Virus record (IMG/VR): IMGVR_UViG_3300020478_000004
Span: 44,526 to 108,525 of that record
Strand: one strand, 5' to 3'
Length of the DNA: 64,000 bases
Source of the DNA: a virus
Shown here: piece by piece, positions 38,818 to 53,441 of the stretch
Layout of the letters: every line of letters starts with the position of its first letter
How positions within the stretch are numbered: the stretch's first letter is position 1
Made by a program: the position numbers and the translations under genes
The notes under the pieces: model-generated
What the model saw: only the letters and a program-made list of their open reading frames with translations
Told to the model about the DNA's origin: nothing
The model's database searches: none

Positions 38818-39405
38818 ATGTCGCAATTAATACCGATGGTCGTAGAGTCGACTAACAAAGGCGAACGTGCATATGACATTTATAGTAGGCTATTAAAAGA
38901 TAGAATTATCTTTTTAACAGGACCTATTGATGAGAATGTTGCCGCATCAGTTTGTGCCCAACTACTATTTTTAGAATCAGTTAGTAAGGATAAAGATATC
39001 TCAATGTACATACAATCGCCAGGAGGATATGTTCATTCTGGATTAGCAATTTATGATACAATGCAATATATTAAACCTGATGTAACAACTGTTTGTATAG
39101 GTATGGCGGCATCAGCTGGCTCTATGTTATTAATGGCAGGAGCAAAAGGAAAACGTATTGCATTACCTAATAGTAAAATAATGATTCACCAACCGTCAGG
39201 TGGCTTTAAAGGACAAGCAACTGATATGGAGATTCATGTTAAAGATATTATGGAAACGAAAGATCGTTTGAACAAACTGTATGCTAAACATACAGGAACA
39301 GAACTTAAAGTTATTCAAGATGCTATGGAACGTGATAATTTTATGTTACCTCAGGAGGCAATTGAGTTTGGTCTTATTGATCGAATTGAGGAGAATCGTA
39401 AGTGA
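38818..39405 (+). CDS. clpP: ClpP protease
   Basis: 195 residues, full family length. Catalytic Ser in GMAASAGS (about 99), His in IMIHQPSGG (about 124) and Asp near 173 (MERDNF). YIQSPGG is the ClpP substrate-strand motif. It has no ATPase partner in the window, so it probably uses host ClpX or ClpA. AAGGAG fixes the start. ClpP occurs in several marine phages, possibly for phage protein processing or degradation of host proteins. Confidence 0.93.
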
Positions 39406-40385
39406 TAACTTGGGGAATGGTCGGTAATAGTCACGATGCCAGTATAGCAGTTTTTAAAGACGAAACGCTAGTATGGTCGGCTCTGGCTAAAGACTTTTCT
39501 AAAATAGACAACGATCCGCATTTAAATCCAGAACTTATTAATGCCGCCAAACAAGCTGGTGGCTGGCGAGATCCTGACGAAATTGTATGGTACGAAACAC
39601 CGTGGCTTAAAACTTTAAGACAATGGTGGGCTGGACAAGGTTGGTTAGGAAAAGAAAATAATATTGAAAAATATTTAAAACAATGGAATTTAAAATGTCC
39701 TATTAAGTATGCTATACATCATCACAGCCATGCCGCCTACGGATGGTACACTAGTGGATTTGAAGATGCTACTATATTAGTTCTAGATAGTATAGGTGAG
39801 TTTGAAACATTTACTATATGGCGTGCCACAGATCATCTTAAAAAAATTTATACACAAAGATATCCACATAGTGTTGGATTATTTTATTCTGCTATGACTC
39901 AACGTTTAGGCTTCAAAGCAAACAGAGATGAATATAAAGTTGCTGAACTAGGTGCTCCTATTAGAACTGAAGAAAATTTACACTTAATAAATGACATGGT
40001 AGAAACTTTCGTTGAACCTGAATTAGGTGGAGAAATGCCTGGAGTTCATTTCAAAGTTAATATGCATAAAGGGTGTGATTGGTATAAACCTGAATTAACA
40101 TCAGATATGGATTTGGCAAGACTTGCAAATGCAACACAATTTGTATTTGAATTAATGCTCAAATCAAATAGTAAATGGTGTTTAAAACATCTTCCAAGTC
40201 GTAATCTTATTATTACAGGCGGATGTGCATTGAATAAACAAGCGGTTAATTTAATTCAAAAAGAATGGGATAATATTTGGGTACCACCAAATCCAGGCGA
40301 CCCTGGATCATGTATTGGAGCAGTATTATCAAGAACAAAAAAACATATTGACTTTAACCCTAAAGTATGGTATAATAATAACTAA
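39402..40385 (+). CDS. Carbamoyltransferase-like (NodU/TobZ family), N-terminal domain
   Basis: 327 residues, start GTG 39402 overlapping the clpP stop and preceded by [18 protein letters not shown] and [16 protein letters not shown] match the ATP-hydrolysing carbamoyltransferase domain; [11 protein letters not shown] and [15 protein letters not shown] further motifs. The Sua5-like C-terminal domain of full NodU/TobZ proteins (about 550 residues) is missing. A sugar is the typical acceptor, in keeping with the glycan genes nearby. Confidence 0.82.
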
Positions 40386-43566: not shown

Positions 43567-43647
43567 GAAAGACGAACACGACACTATTCGGACATGGCCG
43601 CAAAATCATGTTCAAACCATTAAGACACCGCTTTTTATATCATTTGA

Positions 43648-43663: not shown

Positions 43664-43936
43664 ATGCCGAGAGAACTCTTAAATACTAAAAACCACAAAA
43701 CACCAACACATACCATCTCCAATACACAATATCAAGACGTAGAATTAGTCAAACTTATGACTGAAGCATTAACGAATAAGAACAAGTATACTGTTCGTGT
43801 AGAAGGTTGGAATATAGAGTACAAACGGCATTGGACCTCTAGCATTAACAGTATCACTAATTGGGACAATTTAAACTTTAATTACAACCAAAAAGCTGAT
43901 ACATTTGTCTTTCAACATAGGAGCAACGGACAATGA
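43664..43936 (+). CDS. Small protein (90 aa), unknown
   Basis: Asn-, Thr- and Lys-rich (MPRELLNTKNHKTPTH). YTVRVEGWNIEYKRHWTS looks like two strands. Its stop overlaps the synthetase-like ATG (ATGA) and an AGGAG for that gene lies in its 3' end, so it is coupled to it. Confidence 0.5.
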   Translation: MPRELLNTKNHKTPTHTISNTQYQDVELVKLMTEALTNKNKYTVRVEGWNIEYKRHWTSSINSITNWDNLNFNYNQKADTFVFQHRSNGQ

Positions 43937-44847
43937 CCCAACTAATTAACCCACAAGCCTTTACCGAAACTGTCGGCCGTTTACGGTCGTTTTTTTTGGA
44001 CAAGGGATTTTACGAAGTACACACTCAAAACAGATTAAGCATACTAGCCGCTTGTGAAGACCCGTTTAACGTAGCAACATACAATTACGCAGACCAAGTA
44101 TGGCCTTTACCCCAAACAGGCCAGATGTGGCTTGAACACGAATTATTAAGTAGCCCCTCTTCGAAGGGGTTTTTTTGTGTCTCCACATCCTATAGGCAGG
44201 AACCAAATGCAATACCAGGAAGACATGATATCATCTTTCCAATGTTTGAATTTGAGATGCCTGGTGATATAGATGACCTTAAGAAGATGGAGTATGAATT
44301 ATGTGAACACTTGGGCTTTAAAAAGCCTACTGAAAAAACTTATGCTGAATGGCAAAAGCATTACGGTCATGCTGAAGACTATGAAATGACTGCGGAAGAA
44401 GAAACCAAGATGCACCAAGAGTTTGGTACAACCATGATAACAGACTTTCCTGAAATGACATCACCTTTTTGGAACATGAGTAGAAATGATGATGGCAAAA
44501 CTGCAAAGAAGATAGATGTTATACTAGGTGGTATGGAAACAATAGGAAGTGCGGAACGTTCATGCGATGTAGAAATGATGCGTGATACATTCCATAGCAT
44601 TACAGACGGAGAGTACAGTAAGCTACTTTATAAACTGTTCAGTCAGGAACGTGTTGAAGCAGAGCTAGAAAAGTTTCTAGAGTTTGACTTCTTTCCGAGA
44701 GTTGGTGGCGGAATAGGATTAACTCGTTTGTTAAGAGCAGTTGAAGATTATAAAAGTAAAAAAGTAAAAACTGATGATGACCGTGAAATTTTATATAATA
44801 AACGCCGAGAGATGAATAGGCAAAGCGTACACGGAATACTTCAATAA
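43933..44847 (+). CDS. Class II aminoacyl-tRNA synthetase-like protein (AsnRS/AspRS type catalytic core only)
   Basis: 304 residues. Motif 1 is near residues 14-30 (GRLRSFFLDKGFYEVHTQ), QTGQMWLEHELL matches the SPQ-type segment, motif 2 is SYRQEPNAIPGRHDIIFPMFEFE (86-108) and motif 3 GGGIGLTRLLRAVE (258-271). ILGGMETIGSAERS matches the Asx-type active-site strand. The N-terminal OB-fold that reads the anticodon in AsnRS/AspRS is absent, as in synthetase paralogues such as AsnA-type asparagine synthetase and EpmA. A tRNA with Asn anticodon starts six bases downstream. Two terminator-like hairpins lie inside the gene. Confidence 0.8.
   Translation: MTQLINPQAFTETVGRLRSFFLDKGFYEVHTQNRLSILAACEDPFNVATYNYADQVWPLPQTGQMWLEHELLSSPSSKGFFCVSTSYRQEPNAIPGRHDIIFPMFEFEMPGDIDDLKKMEYELCEHLGFKKPTEKTYAEWQKHYGHAEDYEMTAEEETKMHQEFGTTMITDFPEMTSPFWNMSRNDDGKTAKKIDVILGGMETIGSAERSCDVEMMRDTFHSITDGEYSKLLYKLFSQERVEAELEKFLEFDFFPRVGGGIGLTRLLRAVEDYKSKKVKTDDDREILYNKRREMNRQSVHGILQ
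43974..43997 (+). terminator. Terminator-like hairpin inside synthetase gene (1)
   Basis: CGGCCG-TTTA-CGGTCG followed by eight T. The coding frame continues through it and keeps motif 1, so it is not an intergenic terminator. Confidence 0.55.
44154..44176 (+). terminator. Terminator-like hairpin inside synthetase gene (2)
   Basis: CCCCT-CTTCGA-AGGGG followed by seven T, at codons for SPSSKGFF. In frame with the rest of the protein. Confidence 0.5.
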
Positions 44848-44853
44848 GGCTTT

Positions 44854-44940
44854 TCCGGGGTGGTGGAAACGGTAGACACGATAGCCTGTTTAGCTATTGC
44901 TTGGGAGAGCGTGAAGGTTCGAATCCTTCCCCCGGAGCCA
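44854..44940 (+). tRNA. tRNA with GUU (Asn) anticodon and long variable arm, CCA encoded
   Basis: Acceptor stem TCCGGGG (44854-44860) pairs with CCCCGGA (44930-44936); discriminator G and CCA follow. D stem GTG/CAC with the Leu-type loop, anticodon stem ATAGC/GCTAT with loop CTGTTTA (anticodon GTT, 44888-44890), a 15-base variable arm with GCT/AGC stem, T stem GAAGG/CCTTC. Aligned base for base with a class II tRNA-Leu the fit is complete. G73, U1-A72 and the GUU anticodon are Asn-like. Decodes AAC/AAU if functional; U37 is unusual. Confidence 0.85.
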
Positions 44941-51917: not shown

Positions 51918-53441
51918 TTAATCGTCTATTTGAGCTTTCTGCAAAGTACCACTGTAATCAACAAATACTGATTTCCATTCAGTACAATTATCAATCATAC
52001 TATGCCCAGCTTCACGATGCCCGTTACCAGTTCCTTTAGTACCACCGAACGGTAATTGTATTTCTGCACCGATTGTAGACGAATTAATGTAAGTAATGCC
52101 TGTATCAATTTCATGTAATGCTTTAAAGGCAAAATTTACATTCGCCGTATAGACAGCGGCCGATAATCCGTACTTACTATTATTAACCATATCTATGACT
52201 TCATCTGTATCACTAAATGATACTATAGCTACTACAGGACCAAATACTTCTTCCTGGGCTATCATATCATTTTGATCTACATCTGTTATTACTGTAGGTG
52301 TATAGAACCAACCATATGTTTCTGTAAACGTACCATACTTTTCATCTATATCATTAGTTGGATATTGATTTATTTTACCCCCACATAATACTTTATTGTT
52401 AACTGATGCTTCTGTTACCATTGTATGAATCTTCTTTAATGCTTTCTCATTAATAACAGGACCCATATCAACTTTATCATCTAAGCCGTCGCCTATGAAC
52501 AACGACTCTGCTCGTTTAACAAGTTTATCTGTAAAGTCAGCTTTAAGACTGTCGTGTACAAATACTCTAGAACACGCTGTACAACGCTGACCTGATGTGC
52601 CGAATGCACCCCATACAACACCATCTACTGCTAGATCAATATCAGCATCTTCCATTACAACTATTGCATTTTTACCACCCATCTCTAATGAGTATGGTAC
52701 CATACGTTCTGAACATCTAGTTGCAATTTGATAACCTGTTACAGTTGATCCTGTAAATGATACAAACTTAACAGTAGGATTATCTACTAATGGTTGTCCA
52801 GCTGATGGTCCATATCCTGTAACTACATTAAACACTCCTGCTGGAAGTCCTGCTTCTTCGAATACCATTGCTAGTCTGCATACACTTAATGGTGTATCCT
52901 CTGCAGGTTTAATAACCATTGTGTTACCGGCTACAAGGGCAGGGAAGGCCTTCCATGACGGAATGGCTATTGGAAAATTCCAAGGAGTAATTGCTCCAAT
53001 GACGCCTATCGGCATCCTCATGGACATACAGAACTTATCGTTCAGTTCTGAAGGAACAACTTGTCCTCCTAATCTCCGACCTTCACCTGCCGCATAGTAA
53101 CCCATGTCAATTGCTTCTTGGACATCGCCTCGTGTTTCAGATAATGGCTTACCCATTTCTTGGGTCATTACTTTTGCTATATCTTCTTTATCACGCAACA
53201 GAATTTCTGCCGCTTTAAACATTATTTCACCCCGTTTGGGTGCTGGCATCTTACGCCACGTTTTGAATGCCTTCGCGGCCGCCTCAACCGCATTATCTAT
53301 ATCTTCTTTGTTACTGTCTTGTACAGTAGCGATTACTTTAGTACAGTGAGCGGGATTGGTGACTTCAAAAGTCTTGCCAGAAGCCGAGTCTACCCATTGC
53401 CCACCAATGTAATTTTTATAATCAGTTCTGAATATATTCAT
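51918..53441 (-). CDS. Aldehyde dehydrogenase (aminoadipate-/glutamate-semialdehyde type)
   Basis: 507 residues. ITPWNFPIAIPSWK, FTGSTVTGYQI (NAD), LEMGGKNAIVV (general base Glu) and GQRCTACSRVFV (nucleophile Cys) form the complete ALDH set. The exact substrate is not set by motifs; together with saccharopine dehydrogenase and PRODH, aminoadipate semialdehyde or glutamate semialdehyde are the natural candidates. A TAAATA late motif lies upstream at 53472. Confidence 0.92.
   Translation of the reverse strand: MNIFRTDYKNYIGGQWVDSASGKTFEVTNPAHCTKVIATVQDSNKEDIDNAVEAAAKAFKTWRKMPAPKRGEIMFKAAEILLRDKEDIAKVMTQEMGKPLSETRGDVQEAIDMGYYAAGEGRRLGGQVVPSELNDKFCMSMRMPIGVIGAITPWNFPIAIPSWKAFPALVAGNTMVIKPAEDTPLSVCRLAMVFEEAGLPAGVFNVVTGYGPSAGQPLVDNPTVKFVSFTGSTVTGYQIATRCSERMVPYSLEMGGKNAIVVMEDADIDLAVDGVVWGAFGTSGQRCTACSRVFVHDSLKADFTDKLVKRAESLFIGDGLDDKVDMGPVINEKALKKIHTMVTEASVNNKVLCGGKINQYPTNDIDEKYGTFTETYGWFYTPTVITDVDQNDMIAQEEVFGPVVAIVSFSDTDEVIDMVNNSKYGLSAAVYTANVNFAFKALHEIDTGITYINSSTIGAEIQLPFGGTKGTGNGHREAGHSMIDNCTEWKSVFVDYSGTLQKAQIDD

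Follow-up and report, generated by a model that had tools for sequence, protein, structure and literature searches.

A short protein resembling asparaginyl-tRNA synthetase (AsnRS), encoded together with an unusual class II tRNA in phages, is best read as an asparagine-activating enzyme of pyrimidine synthesis that does not act primarily in translation, with the phage tRNA serving as a non-decoding asparagine carrier; we give this overall reading a probability of roughly 0.58. The genomic support for the link to pyrimidine synthesis is strong, and the reaction and the role of the tRNA are what we infer from it. The protein is referred to as AsnL, a name coined in this analysis, and the 64,000-nucleotide stretch of viral DNA from which we started is referred to as the window.

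A first-pass annotation of the window had described a synthetase-like open reading frame followed, after six nucleotides, by a tRNA with a GUU anticodon, and both are confirmed by the ORF list, ARAGORN and Rfam (Table 1). The only Pfam result for the 90-aa ORF that overlaps the start of AsnL through an ATGA is a sub-threshold match, and translational coupling of the two genes is possible. The pair had also been assigned to a late unit, which is not borne out: a DnaB-like replicative helicase is among the upstream genes, and the late-promoter-like sequence ATAAATAC at 43647, upstream of the pair, occurs no more often than expected by chance. A NodU/TobZ-like carbamoyltransferase (39402-40385; phrog_1601, 1e-31) lies just 5′ of the helicase gene, and a large protein encoded at 51918-53441 on the minus strand strongly matches phrog_15577 (1e-116), a PHROG with no assigned function.

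Table 1. Features of the AsnL locus and of the short phosphoribosyltransferases adjoining AsnL in other loci
Feature	Position	Strand	Basis
90-aa ORF, overlaps AsnL start via ATGA	43664..43936	+	ORF list
AsnL, short AsnRS-like class II synthetase core	43933..44847	+	ATG start, 304 aa, PF00152
Hairpin 1 + U8, terminator/attenuator-like, AsnL codons 14-22	43974..43997	+	Hairpin scan, shuffles, covariation
Hairpin 2 + U run, terminator/attenuator-like, AsnL codons 73-81	44152..44175	+	Hairpin scan, shuffles, covariation
Class II tRNA, GUU anticodon, Leu-type D arm	44854..44940	+	ARAGORN, Rfam RF00005, covariation
Anticodon GTT, then T at position 37 (loop CTGTTTA)	44888..44890	+	ARAGORN
Leu-type variable arm + two unpaired bases after it	44898..44912	+	tRNA alignment, covariation
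CCA encoded in DNA at tRNA 3′ end	44938..44940	+	ARAGORN
Short phosphoribosyltransferase next to AsnL	L104 6965-7369; L126 6416-6826; L018 4935-5324; L080 1863-2243		

The only Pfam match of AsnL is PF00152, the class II D, K and N synthetases (6e-18, residues 13-271). The N-terminus begins at motif 1 and no OB anticodon-binding domain is present, so that the AsnRS/AspRS-type core lacking this domain, as proposed in the first pass, is upheld; relative to most of its relatives, the window protein carries a C-terminal extension of about 30 aa. AsnL is a member of phrog_29758 (2e-128). Of the families with which it had been compared, AsnRS is matched in fold and pocket, but every equivalog model scores far below its cut-off: asnS (TIGR00457) gives 31.3 bits against 342.6, aspS_nondisc 28.9 against 368.4, EpmA (TIGR00462) 20.4 against 286.9, and asparagine synthetase A (NCBIfam NF005053) 12.5 against 322. 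The AlphaFold model (pLDDT 92.7) predicts a fold for which AsnRS structures are the best PDB matches.

The active-site residues are all in place: an alignment of 56 AsnL sequences has invariant motif 2 (R88, E90), motif 3 (G260, G262, R265) and pocket residues, with E42, E106 and R209 of the Asn pocket all conserved. AsnL was also aligned to real AsnRS, AspRS, LysRS and EpmA sequences. The AsnL segment QTGQMWLE corresponds to QSGQLYAE of AsnRS and to QSPQLFKQ of AspRS, the AspRS-type Lys being replaced in AsnL just as it is in AsnRS; E106 aligns with the Glu of AsnRS VEPE, which is Asp in AspRS; and ETIGSAER209 aligns with AsnRS EIIGGSER, Arg209 being absent from LysRS and EpmA. E42, R88 and E90 are the counterparts of E279, R322 and E324 of human AsnRS, which touch Asn-AMP (PMC10831071). 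AsnL thus shares with AsnRS, a class IIb enzyme, the catalytic fold, motif 2/3 residues and Asn-AMP contacts, but differs in lacking the C-terminal IRDVIPFPR segment as well as the OB domain, in the family-specific CEDP and T264, and in its genomic association with pyrimidine synthesis. Membership in the EpmA-like family is ruled out by the 20.4-bit score and a pocket that is not of the lysine type, and membership in the AS-AR/asparagine synthetase A group by low score and pocket, although profile comparison places AS-AR among its distant relatives (3p8t, E 8e-4). Isoelectric points are mostly acidic in both phage (4.5-5.0) and bacterial AsnL and are uninformative on tRNA binding.

The window tRNA, 84 nt plus CCA, scores 51.4 bits against the Rfam tRNA model (gathering 29). 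Its GUU anticodon had been recognized in the first pass, but its class II body with a long variable arm had been missed; we know of no other class II tRNA-Asn. The minimum free energy fold is not a cloverleaf, and the structure therefore rests on covariation rather than energy: over 43 distinct sequences 99.7% of cells are paired, with 156 double-change cells versus 29.5 when shuffled, and the stem of the variable arm covaries. U1-A72, G73 and G34-U35-U36 are invariant across these 43 tRNAs, and C2-G71 is found in most AsnL-linked tRNAs. At position 37, 42 of 52 distinct AsnL-linked tRNAs carry a pyrimidine, versus a purine in all 140 other tRNAs scored within the fetched loci. Compared with tRNA-Asn, the molecule has GUU, G73 and U1-A72 but not the class I body with a short variable loop, nor A37; compared with tRNA-Leu, its D and variable arms are of the Leu type but it has GUU and G73 in place of a Leu anticodon and A73. 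The anticodon and G73 are identity elements for AsnRS and ND-AspRS, and U1-A72 is an identity element for GatCAB (PMC9976931). The tRNA thus retains what loading with Asn requires, but not what an efficient decoder would be expected to have. Its variable arm alternates between a form of about 25 nt with GCAA kept in the loop (TACTGCAATAT, ACGGCAAATT, CTCGCAAAG; L001, L010, L030, L035 and others) and a short form closed by GAAA or a similar loop.

The pairing of enzyme and tRNA is genuine and, among phages, practically obligatory. At least 597 relatives of AsnL are present in IMG/VR, and in a viral set of 85 genes – the window, 79 IMG/VR loci and five phage genomes – the same type of tRNA lies 3′ of AsnL in 79, mostly 4-10 nt past the stop codon. 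Genes without an adjacent tRNA, which the first-pass annotation had named as evidence against the pairing, are confined to four IMG/VR loci (L023/L024, L047, L053) and two huge phages (L085, L086), and a tRNA-model search of the two huge phages gave no dedicated tRNA. In the reverse direction, a DNA-pattern search of IMG/VR returned 80 such tRNAs, 77 of which have AsnL immediately upstream; the other three are at contig ends with only 9, 64 and 109 nt of upstream sequence, so that every one of these tRNAs with sufficient upstream sequence directly follows AsnL. Conservation of adjacency among marine phages is therefore seen in both directions, and with the near-obligatory pairing and the intact catalytic residues there is good support for enzyme and tRNA being functionally connected. 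The Prochlorococcus phages P-SSM2, P-SSM5 and P-SSM7 carry AsnL, annotated ‘tRNA ligase’, and the adjacent tRNA. Genomic contexts vary: AsnL lies in the gp23/gp3 interval in P-SSM7, in the purH/primase interval in P-SSM2, and 3′ of the replicative helicase in the window. In the P-SSM2 record (AY939844.2; L082) a tRNA-Asn is annotated at 164094-164179, within another CDS, and the class II GUU tRNA sits at 162083-162168, directly 3′ of AsnL; the annotation in the record looks shifted. In L090, the sequence TCCGGGGTCCCCCGGAGCCA just after the AsnL stop codon resembles the acceptor stem of the AsnL-linked tRNA, its middle deleted, and is remnant-like.

In a phylogenetic tree, the phage AsnL proteins including P-SSM2 and P-SSM7 form one clade (SH-aLRT 98) nested among bacterial sequences, with the two huge phages on long branches outside it; a homologue search seeded with a huge-phage protein gave no matches. 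At least 125 cellular relatives, 50-80% identical, are found in Patescibacteria, Bacteroidota, Midichloriaceae, Pasteurella atlantica and others (one genome scan). No class II tRNA is present beside bacterial AsnL, save on a few contigs that look phage-derived, and a dedicated tRNA elsewhere in the genome was rejected, the best tRNA-model match being an ordinary tRNA-Leu in all 30 AsnL genomes. A full AsnRS scores above cut-off in 11 of 24 bacterial AsnL genomes.

The surroundings of AsnL point to pyrimidine synthesis. PyrE/PyrF- or PyrD-like genes lie inside the fetched flanks at 26 of 80 cellular loci; Pfam confirms the order AsnL - PyrF - phosphoribosyltransferase (PRTase) - PyrD - Prs in a Midichloriaceae locus (L126), a divergent PyrD and a downstream PyrF in P. 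atlantica, and PyrEF and PyrD in Aureispira. Most Patescibacteria in the set have no pyr neighbours at AsnL. Among phages, L015 and L018 have the order PyrD (dihydroorotate dehydrogenase) - AsnL - tRNA - PyrE-like PRTase; PyrD is also near AsnL in L088 and L093, and PRTase in L060, L079, L080 and L063/L064. Neither phage-type gene is encoded in the window fragment, P-SSM2 or P-SSM7, and host PyrD, PyrE and PyrF could serve phages that lack their own PyrD and PRTase. A family of short (about 130 aa) phosphoribosyltransferases, which PyrE models barely match, adjoins AsnL in both bacteria and phages.

AsnL-bearing genomes also lack the early enzymes of the pathway. We scored 30 of them and 14 control genomes at model cut-offs: aspartate transcarbamylase (ATCase, PyrB; TIGR00670) is above cut-off in two of the 30 versus 14 of 14 controls (28 without), the large subunit of carbamoyl-phosphate synthetase (CarB) in three versus 14 of 14 (27 without), and PyrC_multi in one versus 11 of 14, with weaker matches in nine more AsnL genomes; a PyrC-like protein is kept in several AsnL-positive Bacteroidota. 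Among 296 near-complete Bacteroidia genomes ATCase is present in 290, and the sole AsnL-positive genome is one of the six without it; for Bacteroidota, PyrB is absent from eight of nine AsnL-positive genomes versus about 5 of 295 others (Fisher 7e-12). Many Patescibacteria lack pyrimidine synthesis anyway and therefore add little evidence. In P. atlantica (complete chromosome) and Aureispira CCB-QB1 (an isolate), incomplete assembly does not account for the missing enzymes. With CarB and PyrB missing, another source of dihydroorotate is needed, and bacterial AsnL very likely acts early in pyrimidine synthesis; phage AsnL probably does likewise.

The AsnL gene contains two conserved hairpins followed by U runs. 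In 31 non-redundant phage AsnL genes compared with 100 synonymous-codon shuffles, hairpin 1 is present in 29 versus 0.27 in shuffles (maximum 2), and hairpin 2 in 28 versus 1.24 (maximum 4). The outer pair of hairpin 1 varies among U-A, A-U, C-G and G-C, which is covariation, and hairpin 2 has a compensatory change from GCCCC/GGGG to GCCAG/CTGGC. Bacterial AsnL genes have 29 terminator-hairpin matches versus 2.9 expected, a few of them from phage-like contigs; once match starts are corrected these lie at the same codons as the phage hairpins, with unrelated stem sequences. Across 45 other window ORFs there is a single weak match. The arrangement resembles pyrBI attenuation, which is UTP-sensitive and uses a terminator within translated sequence (PMC10135430, PMC4491880), with the difference that the AsnL hairpins are within the enzyme gene itself and not a leader peptide. 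By analogy, the hairpins may attenuate AsnL expression at high UTP, the structural gene itself serving as the leader; UTP as the signal is inferred from the pyrBI parallel.

A plausible reaction follows from stoichiometry, as dihydroorotate equals Asn plus CO2 minus H2O. An AsnRS core forms Asn-AMP, and AsnL would likewise adenylate L-Asn to Asn-AMP, which would close with CO2/HCO3- to an N-carboxyanhydride (NCA); attack of the side-chain amide nitrogen on the NCA carbamoyl carbon would then give dihydroorotate with a free carboxylate. The net reaction, Asn + CO2 + ATP to dihydroorotate + AMP + PPi, is mass-balanced and would bypass CarAB-PyrB-PyrC. At physiological levels, aminoacyl adenylates react with CO2/HCO3- to form NCAs in a matter of seconds, and the same study raised NCAs as possible metabolites (PMC4262824). 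Resting on stoichiometry and this model chemistry, the NCA route is somewhat short of an even bet. A variant in which a tRNA-bound ester is carbamoylated and closes on the alpha-carbonyl fails on paper, the product being a hydantoin, a problem that the NCA route avoids.

Host AsnRS, or ND-AspRS plus GatCAB, would recognize GUU, G73 and U1-A72 of the phage tRNA and load it with Asn, and the body and pyrimidine 37 of the tRNA would keep the Asn-tRNA off the ribosome. The Asn-tRNA may then feed AsnL, with tRNA-bound or re-adenylated Asn, for example where the host forms Asn solely on tRNA. NCAs form from activated esters too, and Asn-tRNA could therefore serve AsnL. Because the bacterial family lacks a tRNA of its own, it is not evident that the reaction requires one; a tRNA-dependent synthesis, in which the phage tRNA is the Asn carrier for the NCA route and the bacterial family uses free Asn, is accordingly a tentative and rather doubtful proposal.

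Less likely than a pyrimidine enzyme is the orthogonal decoding pair suggested in the first pass, in which AsnL charges the tRNA with Asn and the tRNA decodes AAC/AAU, so that phage translation continues when host tRNA-Asn has been cleaved or runs low. The obligatory adjacency and the AsnRS-like pocket are what such a pair would have, the invariant G73 and U1-A72 agree with it, and a strictly kept GUU is what decoding requires; G73 and C2-G71 would act as antideterminants, the former against LeuRS and TyrRS and the latter against SerRS (PMC9976931). Against this stand the prevalence of pyrimidine 37, the invariance of an anticodon for which AsnL has no binding domain, and the bacterial AsnL genes that lie in pyr operons without the tRNA, many in genomes that also have a full AsnRS. 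We consider this explanation unlikely: the earlier idea of a functional pairing holds for the adjacency and the intact catalytic residues, but simple Asn decoding fits poorly with pyrimidine 37 and the class II body. Quite unlikely is that AsnL catalyzes a different reaction early in pyrimidine synthesis, starting from Asp or Asn (for example to carbamoyl-aspartate or an amidated precursor), or is an AS-AR-like asparagine synthetase that supplies another enzyme, with the tRNA a separate matter. The same pyr neighbours and the absence of PyrB, PyrC and CarB would be explained, and the distant profile relationship to AS-AR and the PyrC-like proteins of some AsnL genomes lend it some appeal, but the asparagine synthetase A score is very low, the AspRS-type Lys is replaced as in AsnRS, and with CarB absent there is no obvious carbamoyl donor.

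Aminoacyl-tRNAs are known to be used outside the ribosome in general, and delivery of an aminoacyl group other than to the ribosome, also raised in the first pass, is the closest of its options to our reading. In its specific form – the charged tRNA as donor to a protein, lipid or peptide and AsnL as the loading enzyme – it would suit a tRNA that looks ill-suited to decoding, but no conserved transferase neighbour is seen among the varied phage contexts and the bacterial pyr link is left unexplained, making it very improbable. Hitch-hiking of two unrelated genes can be set aside, since although phage tRNA genes are often clustered and other tRNAs lie near AsnL in several loci, only the class II GUU tRNA is kept directly 3′ of AsnL across diverse phages and contexts, and the reverse test contradicts it, such a tRNA never being found without AsnL where upstream sequence sufficed.

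The proposed asparagine-activating enzyme has partial parallels among known systems. AS-AR and EpmA/GenX are likewise stand-alone catalytic cores without an anticodon domain and with roles outside decoding, but AsnL is far below their NCBIfam cut-offs and in phages is paired with a tRNA; Arg209, kept in AsnL, is missing from EpmA/LysRS pockets. PylRS and tRNA-Pyl are a dedicated synthetase and tRNA encoded together, without classical OB anticodon reading, as in the phage pair; no sequence link to AsnL was found, however, the AsnL tRNA has a sense anticodon, and bacterial AsnL has no tRNA. Nematode nev-tRNAs and allo-tRNAs also combine a long variable arm with a non-Leu/Ser anticodon, a class II body with a foreign anticodon as here, but the AsnL tRNA has Asn/GatCAB identity (G73, U1-A72) and its gene is tied to one enzyme. 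With the CarAB-PyrB-PyrC route and pyrBI, AsnL shares proximity to pyrD, pyrE and pyrF and a translated region that contains a terminator hairpin with its U run, but has no homology to CarAB, PyrB or PyrC. The phrog_29758 proteins of P-SSM2, P-SSM5 and P-SSM7 are the same family with the same adjacent tRNA, previously annotated as of unknown function or as a bare ‘tRNA ligase’. In the open literature we found no account of what the AsnL family does, of a class II tRNA-Asn or of pyrimidine enzymes resembling AsnRS.

If bacterial AsnL does act in this way, de novo pyrimidine synthesis would have another entry point that has gone unrecognised. It would be in use in Aureispira, Midichloriaceae, Pasteurella atlantica and further organisms that standard annotation makes appear to be pyrimidine auxotrophs. 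The start of the pathway would be run by a relative of a translation enzyme and might use an NCA, whose existence as a metabolite has so far only been proposed. If the tRNA takes part, marine phages would encode a tRNA that works in nucleotide metabolism. In both cases, the coupling of a class II tRNA of Asn identity to one enzyme in hundreds of ocean phages makes a new kind of pair that is directly testable.
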